A DNA stretch of 5,134 bases from an archaeon (GTDB taxonomy: Archaea > Hydrothermarchaeota > Hydrothermarchaeia > JALTZZ01 > JALUTC01), in contig JALTZH010000052.1 in assembly GCA_027051265.1 (NCBI GenBank), positions 1 to 5,134 of the forward strand, read 5' to 3'. Each line of letters starts with the position of its first letter. Position 1 is the stretch's first letter. Shown here in pieces: positions 392 through 4,027 of this stretch. The translations under genes and the position numbers were made by a program. The notes under the pieces are model-generated. The model was given only the letters and a program-made list of their open reading frames with translations. It was not told where the DNA came from and ran no database searches.

Positions 392-434
392 AATCTAGCC
401 GATATAATCTTTGCAGAAAAAAATAAAATTTTTT

Positions 435-1475
435 ATGGAATTCTTTAATCGTGAGAAAGAGATTCAAGACCTGTTGAATATGATAAAACAGGAACCGAAT
501 CTTATAACGTTTATCTATGGGCCGATAAATTCTGGCAAGACTGTTTTGATGCAATATTTAATTGAGAATGTTTTGCCGAAGGAATACGTTGCATTTTATA
601 TAAATTTGAGGAGAGAAGAGGTAACGAAGGAGGAAGAGTTCTATGAGATATTATTCGAGACGTATGAGGAAAGGGGAGATTTCTTTGACAGGGTAATAAG
701 CAGGTTGCCAAAAATTAGTTTTGGTATTCCTATTCCTTTTGGGACATTTAAATTGATGTTTGAAAAACGCGAAAAAGACTATCGCGGAGTCTTCCGTTAT
801 ATCATTAAAACCCTGCAAAAACTTAAAGAAAAAGGTCTCAAACCTATAATAATATTCGACGAACTACAAGTCATCAAGGATATTAAAATAAACGAACCTC
901 TCATATACCGGGTCTTCAATCTATTAATTTCTCTTACAAAAGAGCTCAAGCTTTGCCATGTCTTTGCGATAACTTCAGACTCAACTTTTATTGAAAGAAT
1001 ATACAATGAAGCGATGTTGCAAGGTCGTTCAAGATACTATTTGGTGGATGATTTTGATAAAGAGACTGTTAAGAGAATATTACGCGAGAAGGGATTTAGC
1101 GAAGAGGAGATTGATATGGTTTGGCATTATTTTGGAGGGAAGCCGATATATCTCGTCGAAGCTATACAATCGAAAAAAATTGGTAGAGATGTTAAGGAGT
1201 TATGCGAGGAATTTTACAAATTGAGAAGGAATCAGATACTTGATTTACTTTACATTCTTAGGAGAGAAAATGTTGAGATGTTTAAGCGAGTAATCGAAGT
1301 ATTGAAGAATTTTAAGGATAGAAACGAAATTGTATACAAGGAAATCACACCCAAAATCCTCTGGCTTATAAACAAAAACATTCTATTCCTAGAACCTGTT
1401 AATAGAATAATCAAACCTCAATCATACCTCGAACTACTCGCCATAAGAAATATCCTAAAAGAGTTTAATGTTTGA
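435..1475 (+). CDS. Archaeal STAND/AAA-family ATPase (PF01637-like)
   Basis: This is a 346-residue P-loop ATPase of the 'archaeal ATPase' family, placed in the MNS clade of STAND NTPases. Visible motifs are the N-terminal family signature FFNREKEI (3-10), Walker A GPINSGKT (29-36), Walker B IIIFDELQ (138-145, D142 and E143), a sensor-1-like strand FAITSDS (177-183), GRSR (197-200) as a possible arginine-finger region, and GGKPIYLVEA (234-243) as the conserved box after the ATPase core. Residues about 265-346 fit the helical/winged-helix C-terminus typical of the family. ATG 435 is preferred because the protein then begins at the family signature; an in-frame TTG at 411 would add MQKKIKFF. Such proteins are thought to act as nucleotide-dependent switches, but their substrates are mostly unknown. 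Strand composition switches along the gene (see findings). The 3' end converges on the vapC fragment with 12 bp between them. Confidence 0.88.
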   Translation: MEFFNREKEIQDLLNMIKQEPNLITFIYGPINSGKTVLMQYLIENVLPKEYVAFYINLRREEVTKEEEFYEILFETYEERGDFFDRVISRLPKISFGIPIPFGTFKLMFEKREKDYRGVFRYIIKTLQKLKEKGLKPIIIFDELQVIKDIKINEPLIYRVFNLLISLTKELKLCHVFAITSDSTFIERIYNEAMLQGRSRYYLVDDFDKETVKRILREKGFSEEEIDMVWHYFGGKPIYLVEAIQSKKIGRDVKELCEEFYKLRRNQILDLLYILRRENVEMFKRVIEVLKNFKDRNEIVYKEITPKILWLINKNILFLEPVNRIIKPQSYLELLAIRNILKEFNV

Positions 1476-1752: not shown

Positions 1753-1773
1753 TCATCTCTTGTTTTTTATAAA
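1753..1773 (-). promoter_or_regulatory. TATA box and SD-like site of the 1555-1743 antitoxin
   Basis: On the minus strand TTTATAAA (1773-1766) is centred 26-27 bp upstream of the ATG at 1743, the spacing expected for a transcript starting at or next to the start codon. GAGATGA (1759-1753), close to the archaeal SD core, lies 9 nt before the same ATG. It would be used only if transcription starts further upstream, for example by read-through from 1767-2281. The TATA box overlaps the stop codon of the preceding gene. Confidence 0.5.
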
Positions 1774-2102
1774 TTTATTACTTCGAGGAAATCTATTCTT
1801 TTAAAGTCTTCATCGAATGTTGCTATTCTTTTTATCCCATAATATTTACATGTCGCAGCTATAAGGGCATCGTTCGGTAGCAAGCCGTATTCTTTCACGA
1901 TTTTAAACATCAATACGTGAGATGCTGGAGAGAGAACTTTTATATCATATTCCTCTACAATCGTTGATATATCGGATATAACCTCCTTAGAAATATGTTT
2001 AATGAAATCGGGATTATCTCTAAGATATTTTAACAAATCATAATGTTTTTTAATTCCAGATACAATTTTCGCTTTTTCAGTATATATTATCTTATATTTC
2101 AT
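1767..2102 (-). CDS. RelE-VapC chimera (N-truncated PIN protein)
   Basis: This 111-residue protein starts MKYKIIYTEKA, matching the usual start of archaeal RelE toxins (MxYxIxYTxKAxK). From EKAKIVSG onward it is the C-terminal two thirds of the VapC at 3237-3692: residue 12 onward aligns with residue 52 onward of that protein, with Y for H at one position and a diverged end (INL versus VEV). It keeps the C-terminal PIN acidic residues (NDALIAAT with D78; FDEDF with D97) but lacks the first Asp and the central Glu, so metal-dependent RNase activity is unlikely. Its ATG shares an ATGA overlap with the stop of the RelB-like gene upstream, exactly where relE should start. The simplest reading is that recombination replaced the body of relE with part of vapC, using a short stretch of identity at GAAAAAGC. 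The frame is intact, so a protein may still be made. It is not clear whether it binds RelB or the intact VapC. Confidence 0.75.
   Translation of the reverse strand: MKYKIIYTEKAKIVSGIKKHYDLLKYLRDNPDFIKHISKEVISDISTIVEEYDIKVLSPASHVLMFKIVKEYGLLPNDALIAATCKYYGIKRIATFDEDFKRIDFLEVINL
1797..2078 (-). repeat. 282-bp direct repeat, copy A (in chimera)
   Basis: This block matches 3267-3548 at a constant offset of 1470 bp in the same orientation. By hand alignment only 6 positions differ (1806, 1848, 1878, 1884, 1953, 2042), all transitions, giving about 98% identity. Left of 1797 the two copies are still alignable within the coding sequence but differ at 12 of 34 positions. Right of 2078 similarity stops abruptly. 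The repeat covers the central and C-terminal part of a PIN-domain gene. Confidence 0.92.
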
Positions 2103-2732: not shown

Positions 2733-2930
2733 ATGGAGGCTGAGGAAATTAAGCAGATTGTTAGAGAAGTTTTGAGGGAAGAGCTACCAAAAATCGTTGA
2801 TGAAATTTTGGGATACTTAATTCCAGAGGAAGAGCCGGAGGATGAGGAGAAAAAAATTATAGAGGAAGCTGAAAAAGATTTTGAAAAGGGTGAATATATT
2901 TCTCTTGAAGATTTCTTGAAGAAATTTTAA
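2733..2930 (+). CDS. Antitoxin of a RelE-type module
   Basis: This 65-residue, very acidic protein has helix EEIKQIVREVLREELPKIVD (4-23), a central PEEEPEDEEKK linker, and a C-terminal segment FEKGEYISLEDFLKKF (50-65). A 'GexiSledflkk' ending is typical of RelB/Phd-like antitoxins. Its TAA stop (2928-2930) directly abuts the toxin ATG (2931), so the two are co-transcribed and translationally coupled. It shows no clear sequence resemblance to the RelB-like protein at 2099-2281 beyond length and charge, so this is a different TA subfamily. A strong SD and a mini-ORF lie upstream. Confidence 0.65.
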   Translation: MEAEEIKQIVREVLREELPKIVDEILGYLIPEEEPEDEEKKIIEEAEKDFEKGEYISLEDFLKKF

Positions 2931-3167
2931 ATGTTTAACGTCATTATTAGGAAGAGTATTATAAAGAAGATTGATAAATTAAAACCTTACGAGAAAGAAA
3001 TAAAGAGAATTCTCACTTTATTATCTGAAACACCTATTATTAAAGGAAGAACGGTTAAACTTTCCGGATATGAAAACACTTATCGTATCAGAATTGGTAG
3101 GATTAGAATAATTTACAAAATATTTTGGAAGGAAAAAAATCGTTTATGTTATGGATATCGACTTTAG
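2931..3167 (+). CDS. RelE-type toxin, C-terminus frameshifted
   Basis: The protein has 78 residues as read. It shows the RelE/ParE fold pattern: N-terminal strand MFNVIIRKSI, helices (10-32), then TVKLSGYENTYRIRIGRIRI (41-60) and IYKIFWKEK, with basic residues R52, R54, R57 and R59 in the ribosome/mRNA-binding region. After WKEK the frame ends in NRLCYGYRL. Dropping one A from the A7 run (3133-3139) instead gives IVYVMDIDFREKVY with a stop at 3181-3183, which is the conserved RelE ending, including the Arg near the C-terminus needed for mRNA cleavage in family members such as aRelE of Pyrococcus. The restored length (83 residues) is normal. Either the gene is inactivated, the A-run was misread in sequencing, or slippage at A7 makes some full-length toxin. 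Confidence 0.7.
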   Translation: MFNVIIRKSIIKKIDKLKPYEKEIKRILTLLSETPIIKGRTVKLSGYENTYRIRIGRIRIIYKIFWKEKNRLCYGYRL

Positions 3168-3236: not shown

Positions 3237-3692
3237 TTAAACTTCCACAACCTCCAAGAAATCAACTCTTTTAAAATCTTCATCGAATGTTGCTATTCTT
3301 TTTATCCCATAATATTTGCATGTCGCAGCTATAAGGGCATCGTTCGGCAGCAAACCGTATTCTTTCACGATTTTAAACATCAATACGTGAGATGCTGGAG
3401 AGAGAACTTTTATATCATATTCTTCTACAATCGTTGATATATCGGATATAACCTCCTTAGAAATATGTTTAATGAAATCGGGATTATCTCTAAGATATTT
3501 TAACAAATCATGATGTTTTTTAATTCCAGATACAATTTTCGCTTTTTCTTTTATAAGAACATATGTTACCTCTTCAATAACATTTATAGAAGTAACCAAC
3601 TCATAATCTTTTAATTTTTCAAAAGCATCTACACCATCTATGAAGAATGCCAGGAAAACAGAACTATCTACGAATATGGGTTCTTCTGTCAT
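3237..3692 (-). CDS. vapC: VapC-type PIN-domain ribonuclease toxin
   Basis: This 151-residue PIN protein is probably a Mg2+-dependent endoribonuclease. The expected acidic residues are in place: D9 in IFVDSSVFL, E41 (or E40) in NVIEEVTYVL, D118 in LLPNDALIAAT and D137/D139 in IATFDEDF. ATG 3692 is preferred because GAGATGA (3704-3698) lies 5 nt upstream; ATG 3701 would add MKS. The start overlaps the end of the DUF104 antitoxin gene by 29 bases, showing a coupled TA pair. The central/C-terminal part is the near-identical sister of the block in 1767-2102. It is the only toxin in the window with all features intact. The target RNA cannot be inferred. Confidence 0.85.
   Translation of the reverse strand: MTEEPIFVDSSVFLAFFIDGVDAFEKLKDYELVTSINVIEEVTYVLIKEKAKIVSGIKKHHDLLKYLRDNPDFIKHISKEVISDISTIVEEYDIKVLSPASHVLMFKIVKEYGLLPNDALIAATCKYYGIKRIATFDEDFKRVDFLEVVEV
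3267..3548 (-). repeat. 282-bp direct repeat, copy B (in intact vapC)
   Basis: This is the partner of 1797-2078, offset 1470 bp, same orientation, 6 transitions apart. Here it is embedded in a full-length PIN gene, so this copy is the likely source. Homologous recombination between the two copies would delete the 1470 bp between them, including the IS remnant and the antitoxin-RelE pair. Confidence 0.92.
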
Positions 3693-3864
3693 AGATTTCA
3701 TCTCTTAGCTCAAGCATATCCACTTTTATGCTTTTATATTTTCCTCTGAGCTTCTCTATATCTTCCTCAATTCTTATTTTTAATTCCTTACCTTCCTCTA
3801 AATCAACCTTTTCCAAAGGTTTGAATACACCATTTTCGTAGATTACCCTAATTACTTTTGGCAT
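3664..3864 (-). CDS. DUF104 (AF2212-like) antitoxin
   Basis: This 66-residue protein starts MPKVIRVIYENGVFKPLEKV (1-20) and continues DLEEGKELKIRIEED, the clear signature of the DUF104 (PF01954) family. The family has a small beta-barrel N-terminus and is commonly found next to PIN toxins in archaea. The C-terminal part, with LELRDEIYDRRTHIRR (51-66), would form the toxin-binding arm. ATG 3864 is chosen because it begins the family consensus and sits about 26 bp from a TATA box centre. A longer frame from 3930 adds 22 residues with no family resemblance and would run through the promoter. It forms a coupled operon with the VapC that overlaps its 3' end. Confidence 0.85.
   Translation of the reverse strand: MPKVIRVIYENGVFKPLEKVDLEEGKELKIRIEEDIEKLRGKYKSIKVDMLELRDEIYDRRTHIRR
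3698..3704 (-). promoter_or_regulatory. Ribosome binding site deciding the vapC start
   Basis: GAGATGA on the minus strand lies 5 nt before ATG 3692 and inside the antitoxin coding sequence. It overlaps the alternative ATG at 3701, which has no SD at usable distance. This favours 3692 as the toxin start. The same heptamer precedes the antitoxin at 1743. Confidence 0.5.
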
Positions 3865-3993: not shown

Positions 3994-4027
3994 ATGAATT
4001 AATGAAGGTTTGGAAAAGCAACGACAA

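Follow-up and report, generated by a model that had tools for sequence, protein, structure and literature searches.

A 111-residue open reading frame (ORF) on a short archaeal contig joins the start of a relE gene in frame to the C-terminal two thirds of a VapC toxin. The best explanation, with a probability of about 0.8, is that recent recombination among decaying, clustered toxin-antitoxin (TA) genes produced this ORF, which most likely has no function. A first-pass annotation of the same DNA had described an in-frame RelE-VapC chimera behind a RelB-like antitoxin, which synteny and DNA alignment support, and it had allowed for simple debris, which now appears to be the most likely reading. 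The chimera preserves, on a small scale, a clear record of recombination between toxin genes that are unrelated to each other. It matters chiefly because following it up revealed something measurable: vapC 3′ ends undergo concerted evolution.

Organization of the Locus

The window is an entire contig of 5134 nt (C52), one of the 257 contigs in the MAG of an uncultured vent archaeon. Six elements follow one another in the order of minus-strand transcription. The first is the gene of a 66-residue DUF104/AF2212-like antitoxin (3664–3864), a family that we take to be COG2880. It overlaps the start of an intact vapC (3237–3701), which encodes a PIN toxin of 154 residues. Next come a RelB-like antitoxin remnant (2099–2281), which has homologues in relatives and whose frame stays open upstream to about 2329, and the chimeric ORF (1767–2102). 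Directly downstream lie a VapB-like antitoxin (1555–1743; sub-threshold PF02697) and a tailless VapC head of 28 residues (1488–1574). A second relBE-like pair (2733–3167), encoded on the plus strand, sits between the two vapC-derived ORFs. It comprises a small acidic ORF in the antitoxin position (2733–2930) and a relE/parE-like ORF (2931–3167; sub-threshold PF05016).

Other features surround the TA genes. An archaeal ATPase_2 family protein with an MJ1010-like C-terminal domain is encoded at 411–1475 (plus strand) and adjoins the TA cluster. A match to the Rfam HgcC RNA (RF00062; 61 bits, cut-off 50) lies at 2549–2669 on the minus strand between two TA clusters, and DNA around it (parts of 2440–2680) is repeated on eight further contigs of the genome. 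A TnpB-like IS605 OrfB gene (PF01385; 4002–5134, plus strand) runs off the contig end; contig C232 carries an 84% identical copy of it close to an orphan VapC tail.

Three Parts of the Chimeric ORF

The ATG of the chimera overlaps the TGA of the RelB-like antitoxin frame as ATGA (2099–2102), as the first-pass annotation had stated. Position 2078 is where DNA identity with the intact vapC sets in, and from there residues 10–111 of the ORF correspond to VapC residues 53–154. The homology is not due to chance, extending over 299 nt at 96%. It falls into two regimes: from 2078 to 1807 there are 5 mismatches in 272 nt to the vapC segment at 3277–3548 (98.2% identity), and from 1806 to 1770 there are 13 in 37 (65%). 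The difference between the regimes is sharp (Fisher p = 7e-10, at a split point picked after seeing the data), and a second breakpoint near the 3′ end is strongly indicated. The abrupt end of identity at 2078 had been recognized before, but this second break, near 1806/1807, had been missed. Since identity starts at 2078 and the regimes split at 1807/1806, the ORF is a three-part mosaic of a relE start (2076–2102), a near-copy of a vapC interior (1807–2078), and a diverged vapC end (1767–1806). The end region, which reads ...FKRIDFLEVINL, is slightly nearer in DNA to the vapC 3′ ends on contigs C232 (41/48) and C209 (40/48) than to that of the neighboring vapC (39/48); these counts suggest descent from another vapC lineage and say little about which lineage was the donor.

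Family profiles agree with this division. Pfam detects only the C-terminal PIN half in the chimera (PF01850, profile positions 67–119, E = 4e-12) and the whole PIN domain in the intact VapC, and the RelE/ParE family profile has no match in the 111-residue ORF.

Origin of the RelE-like Start

Homologues of the RelB-like antitoxin occur in two Hydrothermarchaeia relatives (G013:C45, 54% identical; G018:C51, 53%) and in Archaeoglobi (G064, G079); a first scan of the named genomes with the 60-residue antitoxin as query had given no match. In both Hydrothermarchaeia relatives the last antitoxin codons overlap a toxin gene starting MKYKLKFTK (MKYKLKFTKTFHKN; loci L035 and L036), and the overlapping toxin of G013 matches ParE_toxin at 46 bits (cut-off 23). 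The Archaeoglobi homologue at G064:C45 (L147) reads IYKIKFTSTFQKN but is degenerate. This relE is frameshifted and has no standard start, an instance of the same relBE pair decaying elsewhere.

The RelBE-type overlap of antitoxin and toxin genes is thus present at the chimera as it is at the homologous loci. Because homologous antitoxins are overlapped by a toxin gene with the same start, synteny supports derivation of the chimera N terminus from relE. The RelE consensus had been read as MKYKIIYTEKA. Of this, the 8–9 residues MKYKIIYT(E) match the relE starts of relatives, but the EKA does not, since relatives continue with (K/S)TF. Similarity to RelE at the N terminus, on which the chimera interpretation depends, is therefore found at the homologous loci. 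The ancestral relBE pair had been sought as well: homologous pairs exist in G013 and G018, but the ancestral relE of the chimera locus itself was found neither by family nor by DNA in 60 relatives.

These data suggest a route to the chimera. An ancestral relBE pair would have stood beside vapBC units, and a deletion or template switch would have fused the relE start to internal sequence of a vapC that, in its middle part, was nearly identical to the neighboring intact gene. The far 3′ end may have been acquired from another vapC lineage via the widespread exchange of vapC 3′ ends described below. More generally, gene conversion or crossing-over of vapC 3′ ends in tandem arrays, combined with deletions, would generate orphan tails, tailless heads, and, now and then, in-frame captures of other gene starts, the chimera being one example. 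A single event (template switch) or two events (3′-end exchange, then deletion) would both fit. The first-pass annotation placed the crossover in a shared stretch, GAAAAAGC. Homologous relE genes have ACGAAGACTTTT at the equivalent position, which leaves this microhomology a conjecture.

Active Site and Predicted Fold

Half of the PIN active site is gone, as had been noted earlier. The chimera has no counterpart of VapC residues 1–52 and thus lacks D12 and E44, both invariant among 37 aligned VapCs, and it keeps D121 and D140/D142. The complete PIN domain with four conserved acidic residues that defines a VapC is not found in it. AlphaFold predicts five short strands in the intact VapC (residues 9–11, 35–38, 98–100, 135–137, and 150–152), two of which are kept in the chimera, where the relE-derived residues form the start of a helix. 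The remaining helices are modeled as a confident but partial fold (mean pLDDT 92.6, pTM 0.71), although the alignment behind this model held intact VapCs, which biases it and leaves it saying little about real folding. A search of solved structures with the VapC sequence gave no match. With the first two strands and two of the catalytic acids missing, the chimera is very unlikely to be a nuclease.

Decay of the Neighboring Genes and Lack of Evidence for Function

Several neighbors of the chimera are damaged. Homologous antitoxins start MMIEILRTKEVDGKIVLSKEDF; the frame in the window reads IFVAIITVIKKGNVVEMSKEDF and has no ATG, GTG, or TTG at the equivalent place. The complete antitoxin gene of a RelBE-type operon is therefore not present, the N-terminal part being open and without a standard start. 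The second relE lacks its expected end owing to an apparent frameshift, read from the sequence. The VapC head stops after 28 residues and resembles a different vapC subfamily, with 14 of 22 residues identical to the head of such a gene.

Four observations speak against debris. Two are the confident partial fold in the AlphaFold model and the failure to find the ancestral relE of this locus. The others are the intact frame with its proper ATGA translational coupling signal, and the fact that four of the five differences between the near-copy tract and the intact vapC are synonymous. Together with C-terminal residues nearly identical to those of the neighboring VapC, the intact frame and the synonymous differences could indicate a functional decoy that dimerizes with the intact VapC or titrates the DUF104 antitoxin, tuning the module. 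However, the intact frame is no evidence of function, because simulated random substitutions leave it open by chance in 94% of cases after one substitution and 83% after three (74% after five). The single amino acid difference is Tyr in the chimera versus His in the intact VapC. Tyr is probably ancestral and the change probably occurred in the intact gene, since G028 and G017 carry Tyr at that position. The substitutions are too few to show selection on the chimera, and a dN/dS argument was rejected, as only five differences exist and most cannot be assigned to one copy; the source vapC is functional in any case. Moreover, the chimera has no conserved homologue, core strands are missing from its predicted structure, and the preceding antitoxin gene has no start. 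No evidence of function was found for the chimera, and the decoy or dominant-negative role proposed in the first-pass annotation is improbable given the chance of an open frame, the lost antitoxin start, and the decayed neighbors.

An assembly artefact, in which the contig wrongly joins two vapC copies, is very improbable. The sequence is a short contig of a MAG and carries long near-identical repeats 1470 nt apart, circumstances that could produce a false join. The relE/vapC junction, however, shares at most about 9 bases, too short for an assembly overlap, and the copies differ at 18 positions, including the diverged end, which marks them as distinct sequences. Hardly any credence can be given to a swap of toxin class, by which the RelB-like antitoxin would control a shortened PIN toxin as a newly formed, functional TA pair. 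In its favor, the ATGA overlap persists along with the antitoxin frame, and antitoxin families pair with different toxins (PMC2701414). Against it, the chimera has lost strand 1 and two of the four acidic PIN residues, which do not vary among 37 homologues. Nuclease activity is therefore very unlikely, and the antitoxin lacks the expected start.

Concerted Evolution of vapC 3′ Ends

Neighboring genes in the vapBC arrays of archaea, Archaeoglobi among them, encode VapCs whose N-terminal parts are about 20–30% identical, and the 3′ ends of these genes are nearly identical. Synonymous codon identity was assessed for 41 pairs of vapC genes at 18 loci, both members of a pair coming from the same locus. 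The members were no more than 40% identical over the first 100 residues, and pairs within one array are not independent. The measure was the fraction of identical amino acids encoded by the same codon, set against the value predicted from local codon usage. This fraction is 0.30–0.45 up to about codon 122, close to the predicted 0.31–0.43, and it rises to 0.58–0.63 at codons 123–152, where 0.40–0.45 is predicted. It lies above prediction at 17 of the 18 loci in the C-terminal part and at 9 of the 18 in the N-terminal part, and there is no rise in pairs drawn from different loci (0.39–0.45). The loci were found with peptide patterns taken partly from the tail, a choice that inflates amino acid similarity but is not expected to raise synonymous identity between genes of one locus.

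The same pattern appears in arrays on larger contigs, some of which are the same genome regions as in the 18-locus set, and in the single-contig genome G061 (2,178,400 nt). There the tails are 75–93% identical in DNA and the upstream 60 codons, compared without gaps, 26–42% identical, one recent duplicate apart. Near-identity of the last ∼30 codons of neighboring vapC genes, synonymous sites included, was also seen at L184–L192 and L051–L058; the former are vapBC arrays of G110, G061, G113, G064, G068, G067, G063, and G118, in which the N-terminal two thirds are unrelated. Taken together, these comparisons indicate that in many archaea concerted evolution affects the 3′ ends of neighboring vapC genes but not the rest of the gene. 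Keyword searches of the open-access literature returned no report of vapC 3′-end homogenization, which is weak evidence of novelty.

Concerted 3′ ends offer a testable route for the diversification of TA arrays. A broader proposal, tentative and rather doubtful at present, is that vapC 3′ ends are a recombination hub of archaeal vapBC arrays. The ∼90 nt after the NDA motif would be continually exchanged among neighbors whose N-terminal parts are unrelated. Toxin heads would be shuffled in this way and the starts of other genes (relE, DUF104) captured now and then, and such shuffling might be a selected route to new TA specificities rather than passive gene conversion.

Other Fusions and VapC Fragments

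No other genome searched carries the fusion. Full-length homologues with the same N terminus, which would have marked the ORF as an established family, were absent from 66 loci of named genomes, as was any second RelE-VapC fusion. Viral contigs scanned with the chimera held no relative, a DNA search of 60 related genomes did not find the fusion, and NCBIfam supplied no useful names. Many orphan VapC tails are present among the same 66 loci, and in two of them (L113 and L062) the start of a DUF104 antitoxin is fused in frame to a VapC tail. These two fusions are a second kind of TA chimera, located near 4001–4060 in L113 and, in L062/L191, as a 63-residue ORF. In 59 Archaeoglobi-class genomes, 39 of ∼116 VapC-tail matches, about one third, lie in frames shorter than 110 residues (orphan or truncated tails). 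Orphan tails and DUF104-VapC-tail fusions are probably common by-products of 3′-end exchange. Concerted 3′ ends would explain the abundance of orphan VapC tails, and caution is warranted before such tails are annotated as toxins.

Comparison with Known Systems

Families of toxins and antitoxins occur in many combinations (PMC2701414), so exchange of toxin class under one antitoxin is not surprising. The first-pass annotation considered such swapping unusual; it is fairly ordinary, as class exchange is known (PMC2701414) and fusions to vapC tails are found repeatedly in related archaea. Pairs of PIN toxins with COG2880 antitoxins are among those listed (PMC2701414). The C-terminal 102 residues of the chimera come from a toxin of the kind that pairs with DUF104 (COG2880, AF2212-like) antitoxins, and the donor-like copy at 3237–3701 is such a system, with a complete PIN domain and its own DUF104 antitoxin in front. 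The chimera departs from these pairs in its position behind a RelB-like antitoxin and in the loss of VapC residues 1–52, which carry two strands and two catalytic acidic residues. With the RelBE/ParE-like pairs of G013:C45 and G018:C51 it shares an antitoxin about 54% identical, the stop overlap, and the start MKYK(I/L)(I/K)(Y/F)T, but it retains only 8–9 relE codons and no RelE body. Solitary and truncated TA genes and TA relics have been discussed (PMC2701414), and the chimera resembles them in being a small, incomplete, unpaired toxin fragment in a TA-rich region. What sets it apart is that it fuses two toxin classes in frame and that its breakpoints are mapped.
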